From positions 875,001 through 939,000 of the forward strand of contig CAUJNA010000535.1 in the NCBI GenBank assembly GCA_963377175.1: a DNA stretch of 64,000 nt, read 5' to 3'. A program made the position numbers and the translations under genes. The notes under the pieces were generated by a model, which saw nothing but the letters and a program-made list of their open reading frames with translations, was not told the origin of the DNA and did not search any database. Below, one piece after another: positions 25,878-57,400 of the stretch; position 1 is the first letter of the stretch; every line of letters begins with the position of its first letter. This DNA is from Effrenium voratum. Its lineage: Eukaryota; Sar; Dinophyceae; Suessiales; Symbiodiniaceae.

Positions 25878-26037
25878 GATGGACACTTCTGATCAAGACT
25901 TCTAATCGACACTTCTGAACGACACTTCTGAACGGCACTTCTGAACGACACTTCTGATCGACACTTCTAATCGACACTTCTGAACGACACTTCCAATGGA
26001 CACTCCTGATCAACACTTCTAAACGACACTTCTGTCT
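25878..26037 (+). repeat. 15-bp tandem array (GACACTTCTGATC type)
   Basis: About ten units alternate GACACTTCTGAAC, GACACTTCTAATC and similar, starting right at the 27-bp inverted end of the neighbouring element. Confidence 0.85.
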
Positions 26038-26041
26038 CCAA

Positions 26042-26590
26042 ATGCGCGCCACGCCACAGCGAGAGCGATTCGACCGACCCAAAGCGCGCAGAGGGTTCGC
26101 ATCGCATGCTCAAAATGCGCAGCACCACAGCGAGAGCGATTCGACCCACCCAAAGTGCGCAGAGGGTTCACTTCGCGTTCTCAAAACGCGCACCGCGCCA
26201 CAGCGAGAGCGATTCGACCCACCCAAAGCGCGCAGAGGGTTCACTTTGTATTTTCAAAGTGTGCACCGCGCCACAGCGAGAGCGATGCGACCCACTCAAA
26301 GTGCGCAGAGGGTTCACTGTGCATTTTCAAAATGCGCAGCACCACAGCGAGAGCGATTCGACCCACCCAAAGTGCGCAGAGGGTTCACTTCGCGTTCTCA
26401 AAACGCGCACCGCGCCACAGCGAGAGCGATTCGACCCGCCCAAAGCACGCAGAGGGTTCACTTTGTATTTTCAAAGTGTGCACCGCGCCACAGCGAGAGC
26501 GATGCGACCCACCCAAAGTGCGCAGAGGGTTCACTGTGCATTTTCAAAATATGCACCGCGCCACAGCGAGAGCAAGTCGACCCACCCAAA
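26042..26590 (+). repeat. 72-bp minisatellite with 215-bp higher-order unit
   Basis: About 7.5 units contain CCACAGCGAGAGCGATTCGA and CGCAGAGGGTTCAC. Units two, three and four repeat as units five, six and seven with very few differences, giving a three-unit higher-order period of about 215 bp. The 428-codon plus frame here is a translation of the repeats. Confidence 0.92.
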
Positions 26591-26592
26591 TT

Positions 26593-26790
26593 GCTGCGCC
26601 TGCCACGACATGGGCGCGCAAGCTCGAAAGTGCTGCGCCTGCCACGAAATCTGCACGAAAAGCTCCAAAGTGCTGCGCCTGCCACGAAATCTGCACAAAA
26701 AGCTCTAAAGTGCTGCACCTGTCACAAAAAATCACGCTGCAGCAACATGCAAAGCGCGCAAAATGCTGCGCCTGCCACGAAATCAGACAC
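26593..26790 (+). repeat. ~39-bp tandem repeat (GCTGCGCCTGCCACGAAATC)
   Basis: Four to five units of GCTGCGCCTGCCACGA and ATCTGCACGAAAAGCTC with variants, continuing directly from the 72-bp array. Confidence 0.85.
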
Positions 26791-31007: not shown

Positions 31008-31745
31008 CTGCCAGCGCCTCCAACGAAAAGCCGCAGATGCTGGCAGAAGCTCCAATCGACTGATATGCTGCCCTGGGAGTGTTTGCGCATTTCTACGTGC
31101 AGGAATCAAATGTTGACCATGAGGCTTCATGCCAAGTTGAAGATCGCCGGAAGTGCTGCGGGTACATAAATTATTGTATGCGACAACCCCATTCATCCTT
31201 CTGCCAACCAAGATGTCCAAGAAACCCAAGGAACTCTGAAACCCCTGGAGAGGCAGGAAGTAGGATTTCCCACACCTCTCATCTTCCAGCCTTCGGGGCG
31301 GCAGCTCCGGCCTCAAACTCAAAAAACACGTCGAAAGGCCACGCGGATCAGAGGTTGGGGGTTGGTTCACGCAGAGAGCGTGGCTGCCAAGTTGGCAGAA
31401 CAACAAGAAGTGGCTGTCATCCAAAACTCAAAACCTCTTCAAATGGTTTGTTCCATGTCGGTGCCTTTCCGAAAGGGATGTTTAGGTTTGATACATCCCC
31501 AAGTCATCACGGCTGACGCAAAGAATTTCCCTGCAGCTTGGCAGATTTCACCTCAGCAACTGTGGAGTTGTTGCTGAGCATCGTCCCTTATCACGAGAGC
31601 AGCGTGCCAAGTCTCATTGACTTTTTCTTATAATGTTGGCACTTGATTAATAAAGGGCCCCCCCCCCCCCCCGAACAATGGAGGCGCCAAAATAATGGGG
31701 GTGCACTTTTGGGACGTCCAAACAATGGAGGGTTTTGGGGCCCAA

Positions 31746-32050
31746 TTCTACTTTAGTATTGCAGCCACTTCCTTTTTGCAGTTCTACTTTAGTATTGCAG
31801 CCACTTCCTTTTTGCAATTCTACTTTAGTATTGCAGCCACTTCCTTTAGTATTGCAGCCACTTCTTTTTTGCAATTCTACTTTAGTATTGCAGCCACTTC
31901 CGTTTTGCAATTCTACTTTAGTATTGCAACCACTTCTTCCTGAGCAGACTTTTTGGAATACTACTTTAGTATTGCAACCACTTCTTCCTGAGCATACTTT
32001 TTGGAATACTACTTTAGTATTGCAACCACTTCCCTTTCAGTTCTTTCTGT
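31746..32050 (+). repeat. 36-bp minisatellite
   Basis: Eight to nine units of TTCTACTTTAGTATTGCAGC plus CACTTCCTTTTTGCAA, one of them cut to about 19 bp near 31842. The last two units carry a CTTCCTGAGCA..CTTTTTGGAA variant. It lies immediately left of the TTCAG-rich segment. A poly-C run (31660-31673) precedes it. Confidence 0.95.
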
Positions 32051-32096
32051 AGTTCTGTAGCCATTCAAAGGGGTGTGCCTTTCAGCCAGGGAGGGC

Positions 32097-32444
32097 TTGA
32101 GCTAGAATGAAACCAGGTTTGGCCAGCTTGAGCCACCTTGAGCCAGATGCATGGTTTGCCATTTCAGCTCAAGTTCAGTTTTTGGGCAGCAGTTTCAGCC
32201 TCCTGTGCAGCCATGAGTTCAGGAAACAGGCAACCTGTACATGATCAGGCTAAGGTTAAGTACCAGCAAATTGAGCTAGAATGAAACCAGGTTTGGCCAG
32301 CTTGAGCCACCTTGAGCCAGATGCATGGTTTGCCATTTCAGCTCAAGTTCAGTTTTTGGGCAGCAGTTTCAGCCTCCTGTGCAGCCATGAGTTCAGGAAA
32401 CAGGCAACCTGTACATGATCAGGCTAAGGTTAAGTACCAGCAAA
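32097..32444 (+). repeat. Perfect 174-bp tandem duplication
   Basis: Copies 32097-32270 and 32271-32444 read identically from TTGAGCTAGAATGAAACC to GGTTAAGTACCAGCAAA. No difference over 174 bp indicates a recent event. Confidence 0.97.
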
Positions 32445-32827
32445 TTGAGCCTGAACCATACACAGTTTGCCAGTGCCCAGGCTGTGACTGATTTGCACTT
32501 GGCATTGAGTATTTTGCTTTCCTTGCTAATTGTTTGTTTTAGTGCTGAGGGGTGACATGTTTAGTTGATCAGTTTGGGCCAACCAGCTTCAGGTGATGCT
32601 TGGATTCACACTTCCAGGCTGCCTTTTCAGTCCCGGTGCTACAGGTGCATGAGCCCCTTGGTGCCAATCCCTACATCTTGGGCTTCAGGTGTCTCAGGTT
32701 GCTTCAGCACCTCCACCACCTCCAGCATCTTCAGCCACCTCTTCAGGCCCTCCAGAAGGCACCAGCGCCTCGCTTTTGCCTTTTTTGGTTTTGACTTTGG
32801 TGCCAGTCAACTCTGAGTTGACCCTGA

Positions 32828-33157
32828 GAGGCCATTGAGAGGGAGATTCAGCTTGGGGAGGCTGCCAACATTGGCTGGCTGAGATGGCATTTGCAGTGCC
32901 TGAAGGCAGGACTTGAGAATTGCATTCAGGAGGCCACTTTAGAGGGCAAGGAGCTGTCAGAGAAGTTGAGGAAGACTGACAGCAAGATTGCAGACCTTGA
33001 GGGAGCTCAGGAATGTGTTGAAGGCCTTTCAGAGAAATTTGTGCTGCTTGAGGCTGAGCACAAGAGGAGGGGCCTTCAGAAGCAACTTGAGAAGCTTCAC
33101 AAGGAAGGTGTCTCCAAAGAACAAATTGAGAGCATGGTTCAGCAGCTTGAGTGAGAT
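32828..33157 (+). CDS. Exon-like open frame, coiled-coil protein
   Basis: After a stop at 32825 the frame is open for 109 codons to a TGA at 33155-33157. It begins EAIEREIQLGEAANIGWLRW and continues with heptad-like Leu/Glu/Lys sequence (LEAEHKRRGLQKQLEKLHKE), strongly predictive of a coiled coil. There is no ATG near the start, so it is likely a 3' exon beginning after CCTGAG or a truncated gene. Function unknown. Confidence 0.4.
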
Positions 33158-34075
33158 TTAGATGGACATAATTAATCAATCAGTTGACCAGTCCTCATTG
33201 GTTAGTGCACCTTAAGCTGCTTGAGCTTCAGCTCTTCGTTGGAATAGGTGCTTAGGCACTACAGCCTTTGGCCGGCTTTTCAGCATTAGCTTCAGTTTGG
33301 CAACTGTTGAGTAACACAGCAAAGTTCAGGCTAATTATGTATTTTTGTGTTTTTGGTGAGTTCAGCTCTTCAGGGCCAAGCTTCTTGAACCGTTGGAGCA
33401 CAAGAAAAGTGCACCAGCAGCTTTAGGATTGTGTGAGGTCAGATTGGAGGTTGAAGATTGGGTGTGGGGGAACTGGAGTAATTACTTGTGTTTGGGAGTT
33501 GAGCCTTGCAGCTGAGCATGTGTTTTGGGCATGTGGGAACTTGAGCATGCTTGGGTGTTGAGCTTTGGCTTGGAAGTTGAGCTTGACAGGTGGGCATGTT
33601 CAGATTGTGCTGCATGTTTGCCAGAGCTTTTGAAGACTTCAAGCTTCAGATTCTGATTCAGTTGTGCGCCGTTCTGAGCTGCTCAACCCAACTGGACAGC
33701 AACCTGTTCTTTTTTTAATCTAGTTGTTTTTTTAGGTGTTGCTTTTGTAATCAAACAGTGCCAGCCAGCCCCCTGCTAAGGATGGCTCTTAAGATGATCT
33801 TCATTGTGGCATTGATGATCTCTTCAGGGATGGCTTCCGGTGCCTTTGCTTAAGCTGTGTTGGCTCTTTGCTTTCTGTTTGGCTGATTAAGTAAGCCCTG
33901 GGCAGGCATCAACCCCATCAGCCCTGTGGTCATTCAGCTGGAGGAGATCTTGGGGGCGAGCCTTTTTCAGATTGACTCTTGGCTTTCATGATTGGTGTTA
34001 GTAGTTTTTTGTATATGGCATTAAAGGTTTTTCTGGAACAGCCACATTTTGTTTCATTTCCAGCACAGGCTTTCA

Positions 34076-35410
34076 GCATCCTGGTTGTGGTCACCATGGT
34101 TCAAGTGAAGAAGCTGGTCAGCCTTGTGGATGCTGCATCAACTTTAGTGTGGCAGCTGGTTGAGAAAGCTTCAGTCATTGAGCGCCGCCACTTAGCTGAA
34201 TGGTTATGCTTATCTCTGCTCCTTTTTTGCTGATGGGGTATGTTTAGTAAGGAAAGTTTTCTTGTTTTTTCTGTTGCTGAGCAATTAAAGTTTGAGGCAT
34301 TGCCTTGCAGCCAACTCAGGAATGGACACCAAGACTGGCTCGCCCAGAGATGTCTGCAGGCACCTCAGCCAGATCTTCAGTGACTTCAGCCCACGTGCCT
34401 CGGTATGCCTTTTAATGTGGTCATCTATTTCAGTTCTGTTAATGACTAAATTGTTATGCATATGACTTAATTACTAATGTTTTGCATGTTTAGTCTTGTT
34501 GCTCAGCCATGTGAGGCCATTCAGGGCCAGCCGCTTTCCAAGAGTTCCTGGCAATTGAGAGATTCAGCTTCCTTCAGGGTTCACTCCATCTTCAGGTGCA
34601 AGAGCTTTGCCTAATTGGCATAAAATAGCTTTAGTTTTGTGAAATTTGTTTTAGGCCTGGGTCCTTTCATGATTGAGCACTTCATGAGCTCTGCTTCAAT
34701 GCTGAGGACAAGCTGGTTGAGTGGGATCTCATCTTGAGGACTGCTCAGTGGGAGACACTGAATTCAGTTCAGTATGATCTGCTGGTTTCAGAGCCTTGGC
34801 TGTGACCATTGTGCTTTAATTACCTATGTTGTTGGGCTGGGGGCTGATAATTAAACTAATTAAAACTATTTAATCATTAATTAGTTGGCACTGTGTGGCT
34901 AAGGAGTACCTTGGGGAGCAGCCTTCCATTGAGTGGGACCACAACCTCATGATGGCGAACTGCTTGAGGCCTGAGGTTGAGGACTTTAAGTTCAATGCTG
35001 ACACTTGCCATCATTTCAGCAACTCGGGTGTTGTTGCATCATGTTTTTTGTGCTTTTGGAAGAAGTTCAAATAACTTGCAATGATTTGAACCCAACAACT
35101 TGACTCAGGATTTGACAGATCAGGCATTGCTTGCAGCAGCCCCTGCTTTCAGCTCAGCAGCCTTTGCCTTGAGGTCAGCCTTAGGAAGGCGACAGGACCA
35201 TGTTGGAAAACATATATTTACTTTAGCAAGCTTTGAGCTTATGTTTCAGCTGCTTTTGGTTGGTAATTAAAGTTATCTTCAAGCATGTTGCTGGCTGAGC
35301 CCTGTTCAGGATCTCATCATCAAGGCCCAGCAGCTGCTTCACAGATAATTTCCTGTTCCAGCTGCGCCTCGGAGGATGCCTGAGCACCTCACTCAGGCTG
35401 AAGCCACTTA
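34076..35410 (+). CDS. Split gene of unknown function, candidate exons
   Basis: Successive coding-like blocks on plus: 34076-34231 (VKKLVSLVDAASTLVWQLVE and onward), 34311-34402 after TTGCAG (NSGMDTKTGSPRDVCRHLSQ, ending TCG|GTATGC), about 34509-34594 (ending TTCAG|GTGCAAG), 34692-34804 (CFNAEDKLVEWDLILRTAQW), 34889-35074 (VAKEYLGEQPSIEWDHNLMM) and about 35110-35272 (LTDQALLAAAPAFSSAAFAL). The intervening 90-110 bp pieces are AT-rich and begin with ordinary GT where an edge is visible. I could not fix a complete model or name a family. These introns look more conventional than those of the GGH gene. Confidence 0.35.
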
Positions 35411-36262
35411 ACTGGCTTAATTAGGCTGCTTTCTTTTTTGCTTTTGTTTTGTTTTTTCAACTTGTGCATTTAATTACTTGCTGATATGATTCATTAACTT
35501 TCATTCATGTTGGTGGGATTTGGTTAGCCAAGCCGCTAATTATTTTGTTAGCTACAAACAGCCAGCAGCTAAGGTTGATCACCTCAGGTACAGGCGAGAT
35601 GGTTAGCTTGAGGGCGCCTTCAGAGCTGCAAAGCAGTTGGAAGCTTCAACAAGCTGCTCGTTTTGAGCAAAGGCAGACGCTTCAGCTAGGCTTTGACACT
35701 CCTTGAGCCAGTGTCAAGGGGCATTCAGGTTCATTTCAGGCATGCATTGCAGGCCTCGACTTCAGGCTAAGACACCAACATGTTCAATTAATTATGGTGC
35801 TGCTGTTTCAAGTTCAGCTTGAGTTGTTTGATGGAATTGCCTGATGAACACTTCAGTGCCTCTTCAGCACAATGCAGTGTTTTTAGAGCATGATTGAGCT
35901 GGGCGGACCTGCTGCTCACTGGAACACTTGAGTAATTGCCTAATGAAGTATTTGAGGAAATCATTTCAGTGTTAATCTTTCAGCTCATGTGAAATTGTTC
36001 ATAATTAGGTGTGGTTCTGAAGCAGTGAGCTTTTCTTCAGCCCAGCTTGAGCTCAAAGACAGACCATGTGCTTTGCAAAAATAGTTCAGCATGTGCAGCC
36101 AATTTCATACATGTGCAGGTGAAAGGTTCAGGTGCAAGCTTCAGATTCATGCAGCATTGGAATTCAGTGACTTTTCTATGAGTGGCTCAGATACTTTTCT
36201 GTTTGAGTGGCTTCAGCCAGCAATGGCACAAGAAGCAAATGCAGCTTATCAACTAGGGGTTT

Positions 36263-37173
36263 GGCTTTGGGTTCTGTGGTTGAGCAACCAATTGAAAGGG
36301 GAATGCTTTTAAGCAAGTGGGCCACCAATTGAAAGGGGATGCTTTTAAGCAAGTGGGCCACCAATTGAAAGGGGAATGCTTTTGAGCAAAGCAAGTGATA
36401 GTTTATTTTCTGGGAGGGGGGGCTGGGGGCTTGCCACTATTGTGGTCCCCTAAAACAATCACATTATTGTGGTTCAGTGGGGTCTGTGAGGGGTACCCTT
36501 GTCCTGATTGTTTTTTGGCAATTTTTTAGCACGGTTTAATAAAGAGTTTGCAGTTTCAGGGCTGGGGATGGTTTTCAAATTTCAGAGTTTCAGCTGGCTT
36601 TGGGTTCTGTGGTTGAGCAACCAAATGAAAGGGGAATGCTGTTAAGCAAGTGGGCCACCAATTGAAAGGGGATGTTTTTAAGCAAGTGGGCCACCAATTG
36701 AAAGGGGAATGCTTTTGAGCAAAGCAAGTGATAGTTTATTTTCTGGGATGGGGGGCTGGGGGCTTGCCACTATTGTGGTCCCCTAAAACAATCACATTGT
36801 GGTTCAGTGGGGTCTGTGAGGGGTACCCTTGTCCTGATTGTTTTTTGGCAATTTTTTAGCACGGTTTAATAACGAGTCAGGACAAGGGTACCCCTCACAG
36901 ACCCCACTGAACCACAATAATGTGATTGTTTTAGGGGACCATAATAGTGGCAAGCCCCCAGCCCCCCCTCCCAGAAAATACACTATCACTTGCTTTGCTC
37001 AAAAGCATTCCCCTTTCAATTGGTGGCCCACTTGCTTAAAAGCATCCCCTTTCAATTGGTGGCCCACTTGCTTAACAGCATTCCCCTTTCAATTGGTTGC
37101 TCAACCACAGAACCCAAAGCCAGCTGAAACTCTGAAATTTGAAAACCATCCCCGGCCCTGAAACTGCAAACCC
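36263..37173. repeat. Three-copy repeat, two direct and one inverted
   Basis: Copy 1 is 36263-36595, copy 2 is 36596-36876, and copy 3 is a reverse complement at 36877-37173. Each holds three ATTGAAAGGGG..TGCTTTTAAGCAAGTGGGCCACCA subunits, then GGGCTGGGGGCTTGCCACTA, TGTGGTCCCCTAAAACAATC and GGGTACCCTTGTCCTGATTG. Copies 2 and 3 face each other at about 36876, forming a ~290-bp palindrome. The inverted copy runs into the open frame of the next gene. Confidence 0.93.
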
Positions 37174-40100
37174 TGAGAAGAAAGCAAAGCTTCAGTTTGG
37201 ACTTTCCAAGTTTTGGGGTTCACCTGAAGCTAAGAAGGAGGCCCAGCCAGTGCTTAAGCATGTTCAATTGCCCTACTTCAGGGCCAACAAGAGCAAACCA
37301 CAGCTTGAGGCTGAGGCAATGAAAGAAGAGTTTCAGAGGCATCTTGAGGAGATCCAGCAATTGGCTTTAGAGAAAGGCATTGACTTGAAGTCAAAAGTTA
37401 AGAAGCAGCAGCAGAGACACCCAGGAGGCAGGAAAAAGGCTTTGATTTTAGCACCAGTTGAGAGCTCCAACAGAAAGTTGCCTCAGAAGACAGCAAAGAG
37501 GCATGAGTTTCCTGCAAAGTTCAAGCTTAAGATGAGCCAAGACATGAGGAAAGCTATGGAGACCTTCAGTAGCAAGTCTGAGTTCTGGAAGTGCCAAGTT
37601 CAGAAGTATGCTTTGGCCAAAACGGCACTTCAGAACATCTTGATCAAAGAGCAGCACTGGAGCAACCTTGTTGAGCAGCAAAAGCAGAAGACACCTTCAG
37701 GAAAGAAAGCAAAGTCAGCAAGGGTGAGATCCTCAGGTGCAGGCAGGAAGGACGCCTTTAAGTCTCTGATCCCTGTGGTCAAGCAATGGATTCAAGTTGA
37801 GAGGACTTCAGGACACACACTGAGCAAGTCAGACTTGTTTCAGGAATACTTGCTTCTCTTGGATCAGAAGGCTGAGGAGCTCATACTTCAGGCCTCAAAG
37901 GCCAGGACACAGTTTGACAAGATCAAACTTGAGGCTCAGGCAAACCTTGCAAGGCAAAGGAAGCAGAAACTTCTTGAGTCCAAAGGTTATGCAAAGTCCT
38001 TCACTAAGAGGCTTTTAGACAACACAGGCTCGAAGTGGAAGACAGCTGAGGTTGTCAGCAACATAAGCGAGCTTGAGTCCAGAGTCAGGTGTCAATTGAC
38101 ATGGCAAGCCTTTGATTCAGCACTTTACATGGCAACACTGGCTTCAGCACAAGAGCTCAAAGCTTCAGGCTTGGTTGCAGCACCTGAGCAGTATGTTCAG
38201 GCAAGATCTGAGCATTTCATGGTTGGTTTTTCAGACCAAGTGCCCCTTTGGGCAAAGTCTCAGGGCAAGAAGGCACTGTTTGCAGAGCATGAGATGCATT
38301 CAGAGCAGAGCACCAAAGACTTTTCAGGGGTCAGGGATGCCATTGCAGAAGCTTTGAGCAACAAGCATGAGCCTGGCCTTGTGGTGGGCACTTTGCCTAG
38401 GCATCAGGGGCAAGCATTGAGCACACCTGACTTCAGGAAGCAGGGGAGTCACACCAGCTTCACTTCAGCAGCACCATCCTCTTTTGAGAGGAAGCCCAGC
38501 CTTGACACAGACATCTCTTCACCAGGGAGCATCAAGAAGAAGCTTTCATTTGGGGAAAGTGACAATGATGAGGCTGTCACTTCAGCAGCCAAGGATTCAG
38601 CAACAGCTTCACAGGAGCCCAAAGCTTCAGCTAAGGAGCAGCCAGCCACAGCAGCTTCAGATGAGCCCAAAGCTTCAGCTAAGGAGCAGCCAGCCACAGC
38701 AGCTTCAGATGAGCCCAAAGCTTCAGCTAAGAAGCCTTCAGCCACAGCAGCTTCAGATGAGCCCAAAGCTTCAGCTAAGAAGCCTTCAGCCAACACTTCA
38801 GCACCTGGCTCTCTCACAGTTGTAGGCCACAGCACTGATGAGAGATTCAGGATCACTTATGAAGCAAGACAGCTGATTTCAGGGCTGGATGGTTCAGGCA
38901 GCAAGCCTGAGGGCCACGTTGGCAAGGGCCTTTTAGTTGTGCCTGGTACTTGGGCAAGGCTTTCCAACATTTCAGATGATGGAAGATGGATTAAGCACGA
39001 AGAGTTTCAGGTTGGCTCCAAGACTTTTGTTCATGGCCAAGGAAGGTCAGTTGGCAGAATTCTTGAGAGCTGGAGGCAGTTGAGGAAGGACAGGCCTGAA
39101 CTCTTTGAGAGGATTGAGGTAATGTCTCAGCCAGCTGCAAATGTAGACTCACTGATCTTGAGCTGGGTCATTGAGTCTCAGGCTGAGCAGTATCCAGCCT
39201 CTTTGTGGCAGAGAGACTGCTTTGCTTCTGTTTTTTCAACAACAGCAACTGAGGCCATGCATTTAGCCAACCAGATCAGCACTCTAGTGGCTGCTAAGTG
39301 CACCAGCAAGCTGCAGATTACAGACAGTGACTTCAGCAAACAATTCAAGTCACTTGTCAAAGGAAAGCTTCAGCAACTCAGGCATGACTTTCAGCAGAAG
39401 TATCAGCAAGATGCTGCCTGGAAGGTTGGCAGTTTAGAGATACTTGAGTCTGTGGTCTTTGCCCACGAGGAGATGAGCAAGAAGAACCTTGAGGATGAAT
39501 GGGTTCTTAAGGCAGCCATCAGAAATGGCATCTTGGGCTACATCCCTTCAGGAGGCAAGCTTCAGAAGGTCACTGAGTGCAGCTGGGCTCAAGCAGAAGG
39601 CTTTCAGATGGGAACAAAGATAATCCCATCAGATTGGTTCAAGGACAGATTCAGTTGGCTCAGTCCTGATGGCAAGCCCATTGAGCCAGACTGGTCTCTT
39701 TCAGACAGCGCCTCAGAGATTGCAGACCTTCAGAGATGGCACTACTACAGCAAAGAAGATGAGCAAAATGATTCAGCAGATGAGGGCCAACACCTTGAGC
39801 TGGTTGAGATTGAAGGTGAACTTGAAGAGCAGCTTGAGCTCAGTCTTGAGAACTCGCTGAACCTGAGGCTTCACCCATCCTTGAGGAGAGCTCTGCACAA
39901 GAGACTTGCAGACCCTTCTTTTGAGGAGCAGTTGAAGAAGAAGAAGGAGAAAAAGGTTCAGAGAAGGCACAGGCTGAAGTTGAGGCAACTTGCCAGAGAT
40001 GAGCTCAGGAAGGTCACACAGCAGAAGCTTCAGAACCATAGCAGGAGAGAGGTTTTGGAGACCTTGAGGAAAGAAGTCAAAGGTCAAGCTAAGGCCAAGG

Positions 40101-41680
40101 CCAAGGCCAAGGCTAAGCTGAAGCTTTCAGCAATGGTCAAGACGTCCAAGGCCCACAAGCCTTCAGCAAAGTCAAAGCCTTCAGTGCTTGCCAAGAAGAA
40201 GAGTTCATCCAAGAGCAGCAAGATTGCTGAGAAGATCACTGACGTGAAGAAGGCTGAGAAGGCTGAGAAGGCCAAGAAGCCAGCACTTGAGGAGCCACTT
40301 CCACTTGAGGAGCAGGTTGAGGAGCAGGATGAGGAGCAGGTGGACTCAGCTCGTGGCTTCCTTAAGAAGGAGGTGATAGTCACTTCAGAGGCAGCAGGCA
40401 AGTTAGCCTTTGGGCAAGATGGCACAGCTCATTTCTGGAGCCCTTCTTCAGGCAGGTACAACATTTTGACAATTTCAGGCATTTTGATGGTTTTACCTGA
40501 AGAGGTGGAGCTTAAGGTGCCTCAGAAGGTCAAGACCTTTCAGTGGCCTGCCTTCAGGCAGCTCAGTAGGGAGGAGATGAGGCTCATGCTTCAGCAGCTG
40601 TATTGCCTTCCTGAGGATGGCTTAGGTGAGGTTGACCTCTTAGCTGGGGTGCACAAGGACACAGTTCTGCTTGAGGATCAGCACATTCAGATGGGCTGGT
40701 CCCTGTTGAGCTGGGCACTTCAGAAGTCAGGTGCAGCCATACCTTCAGACCAGTTTGGAATTGTGGATTCAGCTTTGACCCGCAACATTGCACTTCAGGT
40801 GCATGTTGAGTACAAGCAGTTTTTGATTCAGAAGCTGAAGAACCACCTTGAGCGCCATTCAGTTCTTTGTGTGCCAATCTTCAGTGAGAATCCAAGCCAT
40901 TGGACTCTGCTGGTTGTGGACCAAAGATTCAGCCCAGCCCAGTTGAGGTGGTATGACAGCCTTCAGCATCAGTCCCAGGATGCAATTCAGGCTGCAACCC
41001 TTGTGGCAGAGTGGCTTCAGCTGGCTGGGTTTGAGCCCTTGAGAGTGAATTCAGCCTTCCAGGACAATTCAGACTGTGGCTGGTGGGTCCTGAATTACAT
41101 TGAGGTGGAGGCCAGGAAGTTGAGAGGTGAGACCATAACCTTGTGGCCTGGCTCAAGGGTTCAGTACTGGAAGAGTCGCCTTATCCAGGTTTCAGCAAGC
41201 CTTGCAAAGGAGCTTAGCAAGGTTCAGACCCAGCTGGGGAATGACATTAAGAAGAGGCAGGATAAGGAGAAGAAGGCTCAGGCTGCTAAGGCAGCTGCTG
41301 AGGAGAAGCTGAGCAGCATGAAGAACAAGGAGTCAGCAGCTGCAGCCAAAGCCAAGGAGCTCATTGAGACCAATTCCTTAAGGGTCACATGGAAGGATCT
41401 CACCCTTGAGGAGAAGCACCAAATCAAGAGCCTTCTGGGGGCCCCTGAGGTATGTTCAAGATGCAGATGGCAGAGCGGCTGCCAGTCATGCAGTGCATTT
41501 AAGGCACTCAGGTACCTTGTTCAGAGGAAGGCAAACCTTGAGCACAAGCTTGCTTTTGTTGGAGGACAGGTGCAGGTGACTGTGCTGTTTTTGAGTTGCA
41601 GTGTCATTGAGCATTTGGTAGCACACATTGGCCTCCCTGGAGGACAGCAAGATGTTGAGCAGCTCTTCAAGTCCATGTGA
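37139..41680 (+). CDS. Large protein with C-terminal Ulp1/C48-like cysteine protease domain
   Basis: Intronless frame of 1,513 codons, open from 37136. The first ATG is codon 61 (37319), but the preceding codons look coding, so the true start may lie in an upstream exon. Numbering from 37139: basic N-terminal region; four 16-residue repeats EPKASAK[E/K]QPATAASD at about 493-556; Lys/Ala tract near 985 and a Lys/Glu acidic tract; then a Ulp1-type catalytic region with His1254 (SHWTLLVVD), Asp1273 (RWYDSLQ), Gln1308 and Cys1313 (FQDNSDCGWW). Gln-Cys spacing is one residue shorter than in typical Ulp1. A coiled coil follows, and Cys1439, 1442, 1448 and 1451 (CSRCRWQSGCQSC) suggest zinc binding. 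Ulp1/C48 enzymes cleave ubiquitin-like tails or, in viruses and large transposons, structural precursors. Which applies here is unknown. Confidence 0.75.
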   Translation: MKTIPGPETANPEKKAKLQFGLSKFWGSPEAKKEAQPVLKHVQLPYFRANKSKPQLEAEAMKEEFQRHLEEIQQLALEKGIDLKSKVKKQQQRHPGGRKKALILAPVESSNRKLPQKTAKRHEFPAKFKLKMSQDMRKAMETFSSKSEFWKCQVQKYALAKTALQNILIKEQHWSNLVEQQKQKTPSGKKAKSARVRSSGAGRKDAFKSLIPVVKQWIQVERTSGHTLSKSDLFQEYLLLLDQKAEELILQASKARTQFDKIKLEAQANLARQRKQKLLESKGYAKSFTKRLLDNTGSKWKTAEVVSNISELESRVRCQLTWQAFDSALYMATLASAQELKASGLVAAPEQYVQARSEHFMVGFSDQVPLWAKSQGKKALFAEHEMHSEQSTKDFSGVRDAIAEALSNKHEPGLVVGTLPRHQGQALSTPDFRKQGSHTSFTSAAPSSFERKPSLDTDISSPGSIKKKLSFGESDNDEAVTSAAKDSATASQEPKASAKEQPATAASDEPKASAKEQPATAASDEPKASAKKPSATAASDEPKASAKKPSANTSAPGSLTVVGHSTDERFRITYEARQLISGLDGSGSKPEGHVGKGLLVVPGTWARLSNISDDGRWIKHEEFQVGSKTFVHGQGRSVGRILESWRQLRKDRPELFERIEVMSQPAANVDSLILSWVIESQAEQYPASLWQRDCFASVFSTTATEAMHLANQISTLVAAKCTSKLQITDSDFSKQFKSLVKGKLQQLRHDFQQKYQQDAAWKVGSLEILESVVFAHEEMSKKNLEDEWVLKAAIRNGILGYIPSGGKLQKVTECSWAQAEGFQMGTKIIPSDWFKDRFSWLSPDGKPIEPDWSLSDSASEIADLQRWHYYSKEDEQNDSADEGQHLELVEIEGELEEQLELSLENSLNLRLHPSLRRALHKRLADPSFEEQLKKKKEKKVQRRHRLKLRQLARDELRKVTQQKLQNHSRREVLETLRKEVKGQAKAKAKAKAKLKLSAMVKTSKAHKPSAKSKPSVLAKKKSSSKSSKIAEKITDVKKAEKAEKAKKPALEEPLPLEEQVEEQDEEQVDSARGFLKKEVIVTSEAAGKLAFGQDGTAHFWSPSSGRYNILTISGILMVLPEEVELKVPQKVKTFQWPAFRQLSREEMRLMLQQLYCLPEDGLGEVDLLAGVHKDTVLLEDQHIQMGWSLLSWALQKSGAAIPSDQFGIVDSALTRNIALQVHVEYKQFLIQKLKNHLERHSVLCVPIFSENPSHWTLLVVDQRFSPAQLRWYDSLQHQSQDAIQAATLVAEWLQLAGFEPLRVNSAFQDNSDCGWWVLNYIEVEARKLRGETITLWPGSRVQYWKSRLIQVSASLAKELSKVQTQLGNDIKKRQDKEKKAQAAKAAAEEKLSSMKNKESAAAAKAKELIETNSLRVTWKDLTLEEKHQIKSLLGAPEVCSRCRWQSGCQSCSAFKALRYLVQRKANLEHKLAFVGGQVQVTVLFLSCSVIEHLVAHIGLPGGQQDVEQLFKSM
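38615..38806 (+). repeat. 48-bp in-frame tandem repeat
   Basis: Four units beginning GAGCCCAAAGCTTCAGCTAA encode the 16-residue repeat of the large protease-domain protein. The first two units are nearly identical. Confidence 0.93.
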
Positions 41681-41848
41681 GCTGCCTTTGAGCTGGATTT
41701 TTGGCTGGAAAACAGTGTGAGCACCTGATGCCTTCAGGTTAAGGTTCATGCCAGGTTGCCTCATGAGCTGCTTTGCAGAAGTTCACCAAGTGACCAGCAG
41801 GCCCAAGCAAGTTTAGAACCTTTTCTGCTAGGTAGTGTGCTTTCAGCA

Positions 41849-42232
41849 ATGTCAATGGATGAGGTTCAGGAGACCCAGCTTCAGGCAGACATTGGTCGAG
41901 CTCCTTCAGAAGAGTCTTCTGGCAAGAGGAGGAAGCTTGAGAACAAGGAAGTTGAGAATCAGGAGCAGGCCATTTTGAGCCATGCTGAGAGCTTTCAGAT
42001 GACCATTGACAGCTACACTGAGGAGAAGGTTCAGCAGGAGAAGGAGTTGAAGGAAGTTCAGCAAGCCACATTTCAGCAATTGAGTAGGACTCAAGCTACA
42101 ATTGAGTTCTACAGTGGCTTGCTTAAGGCTTTCAATGCTCTTAAGGGAATTCCTTTTGAGCAAAGAGGCATGCACATTCAGCAGGCTCGGCATGCCCTTT
42201 TCCTTGAGACTGTTGAGGAGCTTGAGGGCTGA
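41849..42232 (+). CDS. Small protein (127 aa), basic patch and coiled coil, function unknown
   Basis: Starts MSMDEVQETQLQADIGRAPS and stops at 42230-42232. SGKRRKLENKE resembles a nuclear localisation signal; the rest (VQQEKELKEVQQATFQQLSR and onward) is a predicted amphipathic coiled coil. The frame is open upstream to 41756 without ATG, and TGCTTTCAG just before the ATG could be a splice acceptor, so it may be a terminal exon of a longer product. Lies 168 bp after the protease gene on the same strand with the same TTCAG bias. Confidence 0.5.
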   Translation: MSMDEVQETQLQADIGRAPSEESSGKRRKLENKEVENQEQAILSHAESFQMTIDSYTEEKVQQEKELKEVQQATFQQLSRTQATIEFYSGLLKAFNALKGIPFEQRGMHIQQARHALFLETVEELEG

Positions 42233-45200
42233 AGGGGCCTTCAGACCTGCATTTTGGCATTGGCTTGAGACAAAAATGAGCTGCTGCAGGGCTGAGTTCA
42301 GGAGCCACACGTGGTTGAGGCCAGTTTTTGATGGAGATTCAGGTGTGATTGTTTGGGCATGTTTGTGAATTTGTTGGCATTTGGTATGGGTCAACATGGA
42401 TTTTGGGTGATTTGTTTGGGGGGGATGGTGTTTTTTAATTAAATTTGCTTTGCGGAGGTTTTTTTTTGGAATTTTCCCCCTGGCCAAAAAAACTTTCTAT
42501 TATTCTGGTCCCCTTAAACAATGGGTGTGAACCAGAATAAGGAAAAATACTTTCTATTATTCCGGTACCCTTTACTACTCGAATGCCAACATTACCAAAA
42601 TGAATATCAAGGTTTGTGTAGGCCCTCACCATCACTAGAATAGTTCGTGATCAACCGGCCCTGCCCTGACGCTGAGGAGCGAGCGCACCGACCACCCAGT
42701 CCACAGGGACTAACTGGCGATGCGCCTCACCCGAGCTAGCAAGCTCGCAGGGAAGCAGGCAAGGCAATTCATGAAAGGTTGGAGGCAAAGAAAAGGAATC
42801 AGCAAGACACTAAATGTGTCCCTTGGAGTAAGCCCCTGAGGGTGCGTGGGTTCGTATTGGTTTCCCTTTGAACACCATGCCAATTCTAAAGGAAGCTGTC
42901 CACAAGACTTGTCACTCACCGGGGGTTCCTGTTGCTGCTGTGGCTGGTTACTCTAAACGGCGTGAGGTGTAGCAAGGACCACCAACATGCAACCTCTGAG
43001 GGTGTACCCCTTTGTGCCTCCAAGCTGGAAGCTATGCATAGCCAAATATAGTTGGCATATGGCCAACAGAGGGATGTCTTGCCAAGAATTGGGGTGCCGT
43101 CGTATACACCCTCAAAGGTACGTGACATTAGCCACTGAGTTTAGGTATGCTGAGGTGCAAGTGCTGGTTGTGCAAACGAGGAATAAATGCATCATGGGAT
43201 CACGGAACCCAGCCCCGCTGCACCGTGCTGCATCTTTGTTCCCTCCCCCACCAAAAGGAGATCCACAGCGATATCAATTCACATGTCAAGCAAACCCTGG
43301 ATGAAGGGGTTACAGCTAATGGCCTAGGTGGGATCCAAAACAAATATCAAACACTGTGGCCTTAGAGTGTCCAGGGTCAACCCGTCCTCTGCTTGTGCCA
43401 CTGGGTGCATCTCAAAAAAGTTTCCTCAATACTGGCTAGTGCTCCTTATGCTGCCCTTGAAGCCGCCCCAAAAAGGGTACCCTCGAAAAGATACGCCAGC
43501 GTAGACCCCAAATAGCATTCGAGATTTGACCCGCGTGTGCTACAGTCTCCCAGACTCTGGCACGTACAGCCCACACAAGTTCCCTCGCGCGCCGCTTCGT
43601 GCGTACCTCCTGCGCGGATTTCTGCGCGCTACTCCTCTGTGTGTTCCTGCCAGTGCCCCTCCTGCATGCCGTGCCTCCTGCGCCAAGGAATCCGTGCGCA
43701 CCTCCCACATTGCACTCCTTCGAGTTTCCGCGCGTTCTTCCCACGCGTTTTGGCACACCGTTGTGCCACCTGTGTGCGGATTGCGCCGGCCGCCTGGGTG
43801 CTGCTGCGTTGGACGCCCACCCAAAGGTACCCTGGCAATTGGTAGTTGTCAGATCCTAAGGCGAATCACTTGCGACTGCCCAAGTGATTTGGTTTCTAGA
43901 TCTTCAGTCCTTTGACCTGAGACCTTGCATGAATAATTTCAACACAGCTCAGCTTTGTGGAAAAAAACACTGAGTCAGCAAACTCTGGAATTAGAATGAT
44001 CTACCCAGAACACGCATTTGAAACTTATGGTTGGGACTATCCCTTGCTAACCTCATTTACCCAAGATTTGTTTGTGGCTCACATGTTTGTTCCGTTTTGC
44101 ACACAAAACTGGCTCTCTCCCAAGCCGCCCAACAAGAAAACACATTGGAGCCGGAGACTTCCTGCAGAACCACGACCACCTTTGGTGAGCCGTTGTTAAC
44201 CTAAGCTGAATTTTCCCTGCAGGCTTCTTTTGGTTCCTGAAGCGAGGAGCATCTCAAATGCTGGCATGCGGCTCCCTGACAAACTCTCCAAATCTCAAAT
44301 AGGGCTCTTGGCCTGCCCTCCCGACCAAAGACCCCCCTACAATTTGCAAACTCAAATCTTCCCAAACTTAGGCCTCAAAGGCCCTGGCCTTGCCGGTGGC
44401 CAGCTCAAATTCCAGAGCTGCCTGGCCCTGCTTCATGCCTGGGCCGCATTCGAGCAAAACACAAAAAGAAAACATTGGCTCCAGACAAAGAAAAAACATG
44501 TCTGACTTCAGGCTAAATGAATTGATTGGCCTGGACTACCCCCGATGAGGAAGCCTGAGCAGTTGCGCTTTGCGCCCTGGGGAAAACATGAAAAACTGGA
44601 CGGCCCCAGCATGTCGAACGCTCGCTGTGTCCATGCGCTTCAAGTCACTGCCCCTGCCGATGCTTTTCAAGGGGCCTTTCAGCCTCAGTTTGCCATAGTT
44701 CTTGCCGCCAAGCTTGCCTCACCCCAGGTCCTGGTAATTCAGTTTTCCCTCGAGCTTGCCCTTGGGGCACGTGCTCGTGTGTTGCGTTTTCCGTTGCTGC
44801 GCGGCTGCTTGTCCACGCTCCTGCGCTGCCCTTACCGCTGCAGTCTTCCCTCTGCGAGGTTCCTCCTCGCTTCGGCTGCCAGGCATCTTGTTTCGGACGA
44901 AAGCAGATCTACGGCGATGGCTATGGAAGTGGAGCCTGCCGGGCATGGTGGTTGAGAATGGCGTGGTGAGGAGGGCCGCTGGCCAGTCGAGGCGTGGCCA
45001 AGCAAAAGCCCTGAGAACCCTCTCTCAGACATCAACCTTGTGATGGGGTGCGCCGGCAAAGGCATCAGCACTGCTGGCCCTTGGCGGCGCAGTCAACACG
45101 GGTGCAAACTCCGAAAGGCTCCTCCACGTTAAAGGTGAGCTCCTTCCTGTCTCTGTAGCTTGCTCTTCTCTGTAGCTTACCCTCCATTAAAAGGCATGCC

Positions 45201-54420: not shown

Positions 54421-57400
54421 AGTTGCGGACGAAATCTCTTGATAACTTGAATGCCATTGATAATTTGGGTGGGCCCCTATCGGTTATGCAGCGTTTGAAG
54501 GTCCAGCTCGAAAATCGCAACTTGGTAGTACAAGTCTAGTACGCGAAGTACACTTCCGCAGCTCCAGCTCGAAAATCGCAACTTTGTAGTACAAGTCTAG
54601 TACGCGAAGTACACTTCCGCAGCTCCAGCTCGAAAATCGCAACTTTGTAGTACAAGTCTAGTACGCGAAGTACACTTCCGCATCTCCAGCTCGAAAATCG
54701 CAACTTTGTAGTACAAGTCTAGTACGCGAAGTACACTTCCGCAGCTCCAGCTCGAAAATCGCAACTTTGTAGTACAAGTCTAGTACGCGAAGTACACTTC
54801 CGCAGCTCCAGCTCGAAAATCGCAACTTTGTAGTACAAGTCTAGTACGCGAAGTACACTTCCGCAGCTCCAGCTCGAAAATCGCAACTTTGTAGTACAAG
54901 TCTAGTACGCGAAGTACACTTCCGCATCTCCAGCTCGAAAATCGCAACTTTGTAGTACAAGTCTAGTACGCGAAGTACACTTCCGGAGTACGCGAAGTAC
55001 ACTTCCGCAGCTCCAGCTCGAAAATCGCAACTTTGTAGTACAAGTCTAGTACGCGAAGTACACTTCCGCATCTCCAGCTCGAAAATCGCAACTTTGTAGT
55101 ACAAGTCTAGTACGCGAAGTACACTTCCGCATCTCCAGCTCGAAAATCGCAACTTTGTAGTACAAGTCTAGTACGCGAAGTACACTTCCGCAGCTCCAGC
55201 TCGAAAATCGCAACTTTGTAGTACAAGTCTAGTACGCGAAGTACACTTCCGCAGCTCCAGCTCGAAAATCGCAACTTTGTAGTACAAGTCTAGTACAAGC
55301 TCCATCTTCGAGTACACGCCCATGGCTCGAAAGGGCTGCTTCTCACGCAGCGCAGGTTTCGTAAAGAAAGGTGTATCGGTCGGCGTATCGGGCGGGGGTA
55401 TCGGTCGGGCGGGCAGACGTTTGCGGGTTTAAGAGAAGTCTTTGTTGAGAGTTCACAAACATGAGGGGCTGCTAGCACAAAGGAAACGCAATGGGAACCT
55501 ATGTTCAATGCAATGTACTTCAACTCGAGCCAGCTGCTGCAAAGTACAAATCTCGGGCCAGCTGCTGCAAAGTCACTGCAGCCTCAAAATTTATCGTCCT
55601 TCAACATTATGTGTATTATGTGTATGTTAACCCTTTCAAACAATCAGGGGTATCGGTTTTGGGTGGGCCCCTATCGGTTTTGCAGTCCTTGGCTGCTTTG
55701 GGTGACCCCACGGCGGCCCGCATACTACTGAATACTACCGAAGATTTTGTCGGATGCTCATATATATATATAGTATTGCTCACCCCGCTTCCATGGAGTT
55801 TACCAAAATGGAGAACCAACGGCTTGCACTGATCACCAAGCCCGGTCTGACAGCTTGGCGGACATTTTTCCAGGCACAAGCAAGTCAAAAATTGCCCCTT
55901 GTGGAAGCTGATGTCATTTCGTGTTGCCTAGGAAGGAGTCCTATGAAGAGTCGCCAATTTTGGGTGGACCGGATTGGGCAACAGGATTGGGCTGCATTGC
56001 TCCCCCCAAATGCCTCTTTATGGAGAAATCCCCACAATGCTGGTGAGCTCAAATTGCCTTCTCAAGTCTTTCGGAAGCAATCCTGTGCTTCCTTGGACGG
56101 AACACCAAAGAAAAGAGAGGTGTCGCGAGAGAGCCATGCTCTCACGATTGGCCAGTGGGCGTGTTCATGCGCCCGTGCCAATAATGCCAGGGCTTTATCC
56201 CAGGTACCAACAACCCAGCGAGTCATGGTGTGTTCTGCTTGGACAAGCGGTTTGGTTGACTGCTTTGGTACACATTCCCGTTCAGCCAAGAAAACTACCC
56301 CGATCAGATCCAAAAAACAATTCATCTGAATCTGCTTCAGGAAAAATAGGCGATGTTCCCCCGTGGATGAAACCTGCCGCGGATCCTTTCAAGATTGTTT
56401 TTTTTTCAAAGACCTTGGGATCTGGCGAGTTCCATAGATAACGTGGATGCGAAGCCAGGCTCCCCGCCGAGGAGCTTGGATCAGCGCCCTGCGCAGGTCT
56501 GCGGGCAGTTGGCGCAGCAGGCGCGAGGTCCAAGCGGCCGCGGCGGGCTCAACAGGCAGCGAGTAGTCCTGAACAGGGCGCGGTGAGACGAGTCCCATGA
56601 AACGAACCTCTTTGGTACTGAAACAGTACCCTTATGGCTAAGACCCAACGATGAAGACCCACGGATGACTGTTTAAGGGATATGACAAAACACAAAACGA
56701 AATCTTGCTGCGAAAAGCTGTGTGAGACAGAGAGAGAAGGAAAGGGGTAGGTAGCCCGTAAGCTTTGACCCGGTGGCACTGTATTTGAGATAAGCCCAGG
56801 TCCAGGGATGTCATCGCATGTTCCCTGAGCGAAGGGGGGCCACTTGCCCCCTCTTCCCGATTCCTGCAAATGAATCACCGAAGCTTTTGCAGGCTTCGAA
56901 TCAAGGTCGTGCAGTTTAGCAGTGTGTTGCAGCTGCTCACTTACATGTGTCGGGAGATCTTTGTCAATGGGAGGGAGGACCAGACATGAAATTCCAGGGG
57001 TCACACCCAATTGCCCCTGCTCCCATGTCAAACGGAGGAGGGGTCATGAGCACCGCGCAACGCTGACCATGTCATGATGTGGGCTCTTTCTAAGGTGACC
57101 GCTCGCTTTCTGCAGTGAACCATTCCGAGGTGTTTGAGGGCAAAGCAACAACCCCGCGACTTTTCAACAGGTGGCTCGAAATCATCTCAAATTTGAGGTG
57201 GGAAAACAACATGCTTGGGGGAAGAGCCTTGGTGGAAATTGCTGGGTGGAAGCAACATCTGCTAAGTCTGGACCCAAGTCGGTTGATATTAGGGTCTCTG
57301 GAAGCAGAATGAAGCAGAACCCCACGACACTTCCCCTAAGTTCTGCCCTATTCCAAATTTGAGCCGCCGATCTCGGGCCTTGGTGTCGAACTTGAAGGTC

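Follow-up and report, generated by a model that had tools for sequence, protein, structure and literature searches.

Private pentamer words on the sense strand of a transposon family in the dinoflagellate Effrenium voratum

Introduction

Why should some 10 kb of dinoflagellate DNA be crowded with one pentamer on one strand only? The question arises from a window of 64,000 nucleotides (nt) of Effrenium voratum (assembly GCA_963377175.1, contig CAUJNA010000535.1, positions 875,001 to 939,000), in which a sequence-only reading had noticed a segment saturated with TTCAG. As judged from its ends, this segment makes up the interior of an 11-kb terminal inverted repeat (TIR) transposon, located at 31633-42592 of the window with TA on either side. 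Its main open reading frame (ORF) encodes 1513 amino acids (aa). Related subfamilies each fill their own sense strand, coding and noncoding sequence alike, with a private word: TTSAG, CTSAG, CTCAG, ATGAG, ATSAG, TGVAG or TGAGG.

Counts, strand and edges of the motif

From 32090 to 42420 there are 156 TTCAG, about 15 times the 10.5 predicted from base composition. First-order Markov simulation gives a mean of 38.8 and a maximum of 55 in 200 runs. The reverse complement, CTGAA, occurs 19 times, and the one-stranded character first described is thus confirmed. A second form, TTGAG, had been overlooked; it is present 105 times against 13.3 expected, with 11 copies of its complement CTCAA. As TTGAG is enriched and one-stranded alongside TTCAG, the motif is TTSAG and not a single pentamer. 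The whole transposon holds 263 TTSAG against 30 reverse complements, the motif being a feature of the sense strand only. Five CTSAA sites are clustered in 37001-37250, a 250-bp tile that belongs to an inverted repeat, and the inverted copy in this block bears the reverse-complement motifs. The density of TTCAG averages about 9 per 600 bases, with a peak of 16 in the 500-bp window from 38501. The enrichment noted by the sequence-only reading is therefore real, but its figures of 15-18 per 600 bases and 25-30 times chance were too high.

The strand-specific rise is sharp in windowed counts, with edges at 32036 and 42342: within the transposon, TTSAG start positions range from 32036 to 42338. Outside the transposon, TTSAG and its complement occur at 2.85 and 3.00 per kb in the left flank and at 2.06 and 3.60 per kb in the right, in agreement with the earlier remark that the surrounding DNA lacks the bias. 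The motif is absent from both termini, with none in 31633-32035 and none in 42361-42592. Between these limits it runs, as had been claimed, through coding and noncoding sequence and all codon phases. Its density is 26.6 per kb in the ORF and 25.6 per kb in the left half, and the TTCAG of the ORF number 9, 27 and 39 in phases 0, 1 and 2, respectively. In the inverted-repeat block 36262-37138 it is down to 10.3 per kb, and the most AT-rich quartile of left-half tiles has 1.39 TTSAG per 100 bp against 2.65-3.24 in the others.

The observed/expected ratio (o/e) of CpG is 0.00-0.27 in 500-bp windows across 32001-42500 and 0.61-0.97 in 4-kb windows lying wholly outside. One-mismatch neighbours of the motif are not depleted, save those bearing CpG. 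Shortly after the motif domain begins, at 32052-32066, lies CTGTAGCCATT, which differs from the dinoflagellate spliced leader, CCGTAGCCATT, by one CpG change; this likeness may be chance.

Ends and copies of the transposon

The two ends match in inverted orientation over 31631-31657 and 42568-42594, with 23 of 27 positions identical, TA included. The ungapped score of this match is 19, whereas random pairs (143 pairs, 300-bp stretches) average 9.8 and never exceed 13. A search of the host assembly (1.156 Gb, 3699 contigs) with a 601-bp piece of the element gives 21 matches, 12 of them full-length at 90-100% identity (window included). In seven of nine other copies the match with the window ends at 42594-42596, and the sequence beyond differs, except that the copies in C3613 and C1854 have a common right flank. 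The remaining two (C557 and C3296) diverge earlier, still reach the ACATTA end and then have differing flanks. Among nine left stretches the left end is present only in C3537, where TA precedes ATGTTGG as well. TA is thus found at both ends of the two copies read at both ends (window and C3537), and the right-hand TA is seen by alignment in seven of the nine others. DNA relatives of the element were found neither in public viral contigs nor in bacterial or archaeal genomes.

Excess of the motif over codon usage

Codon choice is insufficient to produce the motif, as had been argued from the codon phases. Synonymous shuffling of the ORF gives 23.9 ± 3.6 TTCAG against 75 actual and 20.0 TTGAG against 46, and TTCAG is the top pentamer in the synonymous k-mer scan (z 12.6). 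Ser is encoded by TCA at 39 of 40 codons in the T_G context and at 23 of 109 elsewhere. Leu is encoded by CTT at 30 of 34 codons before Gln or Glu (35/122 elsewhere). In motif context, the corresponding values are 10 of 11 for Phe as TTT (20/39 elsewhere), 14 of 17 for Val as GTT (21/66) and 11 of 13 for Ile as ATT (17/41). The motif is completed at whichever position is free, and when the phases are pooled, TTSAG is present at 121 of the 167 sites that permit it, where 43.6 are expected. The protein itself is bent a little toward the motif, with 75 [FLIV][QE] dipeptides compared with 53.7 by permutation (z 3.7). The excess is similar in the two nearest relatives of the window and is not seen in other members tested.

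Words predicted from homologous proteins

Homologues of the ORF occur in Effrenium, Symbiodinium, Fugacium kawagutii and Durusdinium, and 53 proteins were gathered. Those without the TTSAG dipeptide excess have other dipeptide excesses instead. All 53 were scored for each of the 1024 pentamers by its encodability in the protein relative to permuted proteins. Of 30 proteins, 10 rank CTGAG at the top and two others CTCAG, above the 95% permutation maximum; P0024 ranks ATGAG at the top (z 8.1). A run with low-complexity and repeated peptides masked took 23 of the 30; here CTGAG is first in five and CTCAG in three, and P0024 again gives ATGAG (z 5.8, permutation maximum 4.8). Within a second clade, ATGAG is first and above threshold in 16 of 25 members and first but below it in one; members of one clade are related, so these protein counts are non-independent. 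As a control, seven Escherichia coli stretches of 1400 residues give z from -0.6 to 1.0 for CTGAG and from -1.4 to 1.7 for ATGAG, the highest value of any pentamer being 4.6. Three proteins of Symbiodinium CCMP2592 (P0021-P0023) have a strong Ser-Gly and Ser-Glu dipeptide excess from which a word is not readable.

Words in the DNA of sister subfamilies

CTSAG and ATGAG, deduced beforehand from the proteins, were then met in the DNA of the subfamilies. A 92-residue query gives 102 family matches in the E. voratum genome, of which 16 loci were counted (L054 holds N stretches, and its expected values were unused). Five loci of the CTSAG clade, of about 3.3 kb, contain 40-43 CTGAG and 29-36 CTCAG, with about 3 expected of each; a sixth, L015, is weaker. 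Other loci have other words. L022 bears 46 CTCAG (complement 9), L053 bears 57 ATGAG against 8 expected (complement 10) and L055 bears 53 against 8 (complement 8). L057 combines 44 ATCAG (complement 5) with 34 ATGAG, L056 has 80 TGCAG and 59 TGAAG, and L050 has 64 TGAGG with a complement of 5. Word density is comparable inside and outside the longest ORF in the sampled loci.

The words exceed codon usage here also. Synonymous-shuffle z is 13.0 for TTCAG (L021), up to 8.6 for CTCAG, 9.6 for TGCAG, 7.7 for ATCAG, 6.4 for TGAGG and 4.3-4.6 for ATGAG. In L053 and L055, CATTG (z 6.8 and 7.7) outscores ATGAG because the amino acids fix most of the ATGAG there. At permissive sites the word proper to each ORF is present in 52/74, 36/53 and 34/50 cases for CTSAG, 14/24 for CTCAG, 25/27 and 30/34 for ATGAG, 72/96 for ATSAG, 165/256 for TGVAG and 43/69 for TGAGG. 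In a cross-matrix of realised to permissive sites, each word-bearing ORF is top for its own motif.

A low CpG o/e of 0.05-0.10 is common to L012-L014, L021, L024, L028, L052, L053 and L057. Host genes served as a control: a search for HSP70 gave 34 matches, 10 loci were fetched, 8 entered the synonymous scan and 3 the permissive-site and cross-matrix tests. The eight HSP70 ORFs have no such word (largest synonymous z 4.1), contrary to what a skew throughout the genome would give, and their CpG o/e is 0.67-1.25.

Evolution of the words

The words follow the clades. When TTSAG, CTSAG and ATGAG are mapped as labels onto a tree of the conserved core, two changes suffice, the minimum possible; shuffled labels need 12.2 on average. 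This tree holds 44 of 63 candidate rows, 29 of them labelled and 15 unlabelled, some of the latter inside labelled clades; 17 proteins and three loci without the core pattern were left off. When window TTSAG sites are aligned to relatives of the CTSAG clade, 16 of 66 bear TTSAG or CTSAG in L024 and 12 of 40 in L013. Motif sites are thus mostly not common to different subfamilies, and sites turn over.

Among ten close copies, ungapped blocks yield 499 unique substitutions, with 7 motif gains against 5.4 ± 2.3 expected and 55 losses against 67.0 ± 6.9. Motif loss in resident copies is close to what neutrality predicts. A per-copy count had pointed to active motif gain, with 18 gains against 8.3 expected and 51 losses against 86.3. 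In a gappy alignment, however, it scored shared variants more than once, and it was rejected. Given the near-neutral decay in resident copies, the saturation was probably built by selection on lineages that are still moving and not by mutation in place.

The encoded protein

The C-terminal part of the ORF is, on the evidence of profile comparison, Ulp1-like and homologous to the peptidase C48 catalytic domain. The ORF matches Pfam PF02902 (C48) at E=0.0096, under the cut-off, and the family profile finds Ulp1-like proteases in the PDB at 2.2e-8. PF02902 is matched by 7 of 18 family members at E<=1, the best at 0.001. The middle of the ORF looks by eye like a pogo-type DDE domain. The first 36 nt of the ORF lie within the inverted-repeat block, and the N-terminus of its homologues is missing from it.

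At or near the N-terminus of many homologues (P0003-P0006, P0008, P0011-P0013, P0024, P0032 and P0045) there is a motif R-x-R/K-G-G-G, e.g., MRLRGGG. It resembles the ubiquitin tail and the GG cleavage sites of Ulp1/adenain proteases and is possibly, by this analogy, a self-cleavage site. The E. voratum gene model P0002 runs from the main ORF into a relative of the patch at 41837-42229. It also joins element sequence to a Tpt1/KptA 2'-phosphotransferase domain and is probably chimeric.

Comparison with known systems

DNA uptake sequences, Chi and KOPS are short, often oriented words that are over-represented and that selection maintains by way of a reader; they occur genome-wide in bacteria at far lower densities. 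The word described here differs in its restriction to a single subfamily of eukaryotic transposons. Transposons of the Tc1/mariner/pogo type have TIRs, a TA target and a DDE transposase. The element has TIRs and TA at both sides in common with these, and differs in its fused Ulp1-like protease domain, its length of about 11 kb and a DDE domain that is only putative. An Ulp1-type cysteine protease of the C48 kind is also carried by other DNA transposons (KDZ, some MULEs and Ginger), although transposase family models of these types found no match in proteins of the element family. Introners, in the sections of PMC11453091 available, are mobile elements in dinoflagellates that make introns. Unlike them, the element is bounded by TIRs and TA instead of splice sites and carries a long ORF.

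Among known systems, VANDAL/VANC of Arabidopsis appears to come closest as a private short motif that is read by a protein of the element itself. According to the accessible parts of PMC5735166 and PMC10398659, this system likewise has a family-specific short motif, an element that encodes its own protein and a motif that shifts between related elements. The VANC21 motif is 9 bp long, lies in noncoding tandem repeats and, in the same parts of PMC5735166, is absent from the coding probes tested. The words described here are pentamers that are for the most part dispersed, occur at about 25 per kb on one strand and fill coding as well as noncoding DNA. No element is known to us from published descriptions in which the entire transcribed region, coding sequence included, is built around a one-strand private word that differs in each sister subfamily. 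No description of such transposons was found in the portion of the open PMC literature covered.

Proposed role of the words and rival explanations

The sequence-only reading had offered two ideas. One was that TTCAG, as a splice-acceptor end, would allow the element to be spliced out of host transcripts in one orientation. This finds no support: one-strandedness is just as marked for TTGAG, an unusual ending for an acceptor site, as for TTCAG; an intact 1513-aa ORF bears the motif along its length; the element ends in TA-flanked inverted repeats and not in splice sites; and sister elements bear CTSAG, ATGAG, TGVAG or TGAGG instead. The other idea, a recognition or packaging motif, fares better. 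The private word at most permissive sites in several subfamilies makes a recognition motif most likely, although the reader that it calls for did not emerge from the domain searches.

The explanation preferred here, at a little under an even chance, is that the window carries a recently active TIR transposon copy in which TTSAG serves as an identity mark for a subfamily-encoded reader of the sense transcript or of oriented DNA. Its extension to the family is put forward just as tentatively: the pentamers would form a subfamily identity code with a reader for each, competition between copies would lead to near saturation, and families would split by changing word and reader. A nucleic-acid-binding factor, one per subfamily, would recognise its own transcript (or oriented DNA) through many weak contacts with the word. 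It could favour its own kind by helping export, by shielding against silencing or decay, or by loading the transposition machinery. As copies would compete for the common factor, each added word would bring a small gain, and selection on copies that still jump would push the word to near saturation. This would reach through coding sequence at the cost of some amino-acid choices. An altered reader specificity would give rise to another subfamily, with a word of its own. RNA is favoured over DNA as the target because the words are oriented, lie over the genes and are missing from both termini; recognition of pre-mRNA or oriented DNA is proposed less surely. With several words in use within a single host, the simplest arrangement would be for every subfamily to encode a reader of its own.

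If this identity code is real, it would be readable from protein sequence alone. The existence of a reader would mean a new form of self/non-self discrimination by selfish DNA with a strong evolutionary record, namely hundreds of sites per element and several word switches in one genome. It provides a sequence-only test for new members and matched sets of readers and targets for binding assays. It also offers a clean case of selection on synonymous sites that is unrelated to translation.

Several results weigh against the identity-mark explanation. Neither a reader nor an RNA-binding domain was found, the smaller coding patches giving only sub-threshold Pfam matches and NCBIfam yielding nothing of use. 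The N-terminal DNA-binding and central transposase assignments were made by eye; DDE_1 (PF03184) matches a fragment of the window protein only at E=0.21 and, in Pfam, none of seven homologue fragments. Two of the 16 loci counted, L051 and L052, are without a clear word of this kind, and the TGCAG of L056 is high on the opposite strand too (80 v 48). CTSAG is its own reverse complement, so its orientation is not testable. At the protein level TTCAG ranks only sixth in the window (z 3.4, threshold 3.6), and nine of the 25 second-clade members do not put ATGAG above the permutation threshold, eight of them not ranking it first. The lack of the word at the termini may be owing to transposase sites that occupy them. 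AT-rich, intron-like tiles keep the word at about half density, which mature RNA alone fits poorly.

An alternative that is unlikely, yet deserves serious attention, acts on DNA: an element-encoded protein would coat dense short sites and keep the element unmethylated or mobile, as in VANDAL/VANC. The targets of VANC are short, family-specific and density-dependent and shift with the encoded protein, as described in the available parts of PMC5735166 and PMC10398659. The words here are private to subfamilies as well, and the near-absence of CpG in several subfamilies fits past CpG methylation or its avoidance. However, ordinary DNA sites act in both orientations whereas these words are one-stranded, and the noncoding tandem repeats that hold VANC motifs (PMC5735166, same parts) contrast with words that fill coding sequence and are mostly dispersed. 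Host RNA processing is an improbable source, with the words acting as exon-definition or splicing-enhancer, mRNA export or translation signals for host factors. Their orientation, their thinning in AT-rich, intron-like tiles and their absence from the termini would suit such signals, but the eight host HSP70 ORFs lack a word of this kind, and a single host reader does not explain why sister elements in one host differ.

It is quite improbable that biased mutation, editing or gene conversion writes the words into the elements. The loss of CpG shows that mutation has shaped these elements, and the crude per-copy count pointed to motif gain until it was superseded by the unique-event count, which removed the gain signal in the ten copies. 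Completion of the word at whichever position is free, with no depletion of non-CpG one-mismatch neighbours, argues against such a process, although a bias tied to transposition itself is a possible source of the words. Finally, it is scarcely credible that the words simply follow from amino-acid composition, codon usage and avoidance of CpG and TpA, an explanation tested and rejected for the window ORF. Both dinucleotides are scarce, and TCA, CAG, GAG and CTT are common codons; yet shuffles that keep both protein and codon usage yield less than a third of the actual TTCAG, this word heads all pentamers in the scan, and relatives with similar proteins carry different words.

Features of the transposon and minor observations

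The features of the transposon are as follows, with strand in brackets.

31631-31632 (no strand): TA at the left end, a putative target-site duplication, from the sequence
31633-31657 (+): left terminal inverted repeat, ATGTTGGCACTTGATTAATAAAGGG, with the 23/27 match to the right end
31743-32040 (+): subterminal tandem array of 36/48-bp units, CTTTAGTATTGCAGCCACTTC..., with no TTSAG before 32036
32036-42342 (+): TTSAG-saturated, CpG-poor domain, from motif and CpG counts
32097-32450 (+): perfect 174-bp tandem duplication within the motif domain, from sequence repeats
32828-33151 (+): coding-like patch of 108 aa, coiled-coil-like, putatively coding by a codon-usage score trained on the main ORF
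33893-35261 (+): short coding-like patches between AT-rich, intron-like spacers, from the codon-usage score, with a putative exon-intron pattern read by eye and TTSAG thinner in the AT-rich tiles
36262-37174 (no strand): rearranged block in which a 255-261-nt unit recurs in direct and inverted orientation, from sequence repeats
37139-41680 (+): 1513-aa ORF, an open frame with homologues
40835-41116 (+): Ulp1/C48-like protease region, ORF residues 1233-1326, predicted from Pfam PF02902 and the family profile
41837-42229 (+): downstream coding patch of 131 aa, predicted from the codon-usage score and the E. voratum gene model P0002
42568-42592 (-): right terminal inverted repeat, from the inverted match and the end shared among copies
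42593-42594 (no strand): TA at the right end, from the sequence and copy alignment

The 174-bp tandem duplication is perfect and therefore very recent. For the 108-aa patch, every Pfam match is under the curated cut-offs. The patches at 33893-35261 probably represent a second, multi-exon gene, as weakly suggested by the codon-usage score. In the rearranged block, the copies of the 255-261-nt unit are nested, 97-99% alike and cut into the start of the ORF, and over 30 bp part of the unit is 83% like the element's right end.

Among the sister loci, L052 (G000:C19:41700-46699) has open frames of about 1450 aa and a CpG o/e of 0.07, with no NTSAG word. Its standouts are AGCTT, at 39 against 3.6 expected, and AGTTG, at 39 with a complement of 1. 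The flanks of the transposon in the window hold large tandem arrays at 54502-55296 and 26035-26594 (61-bp and 73-bp units).

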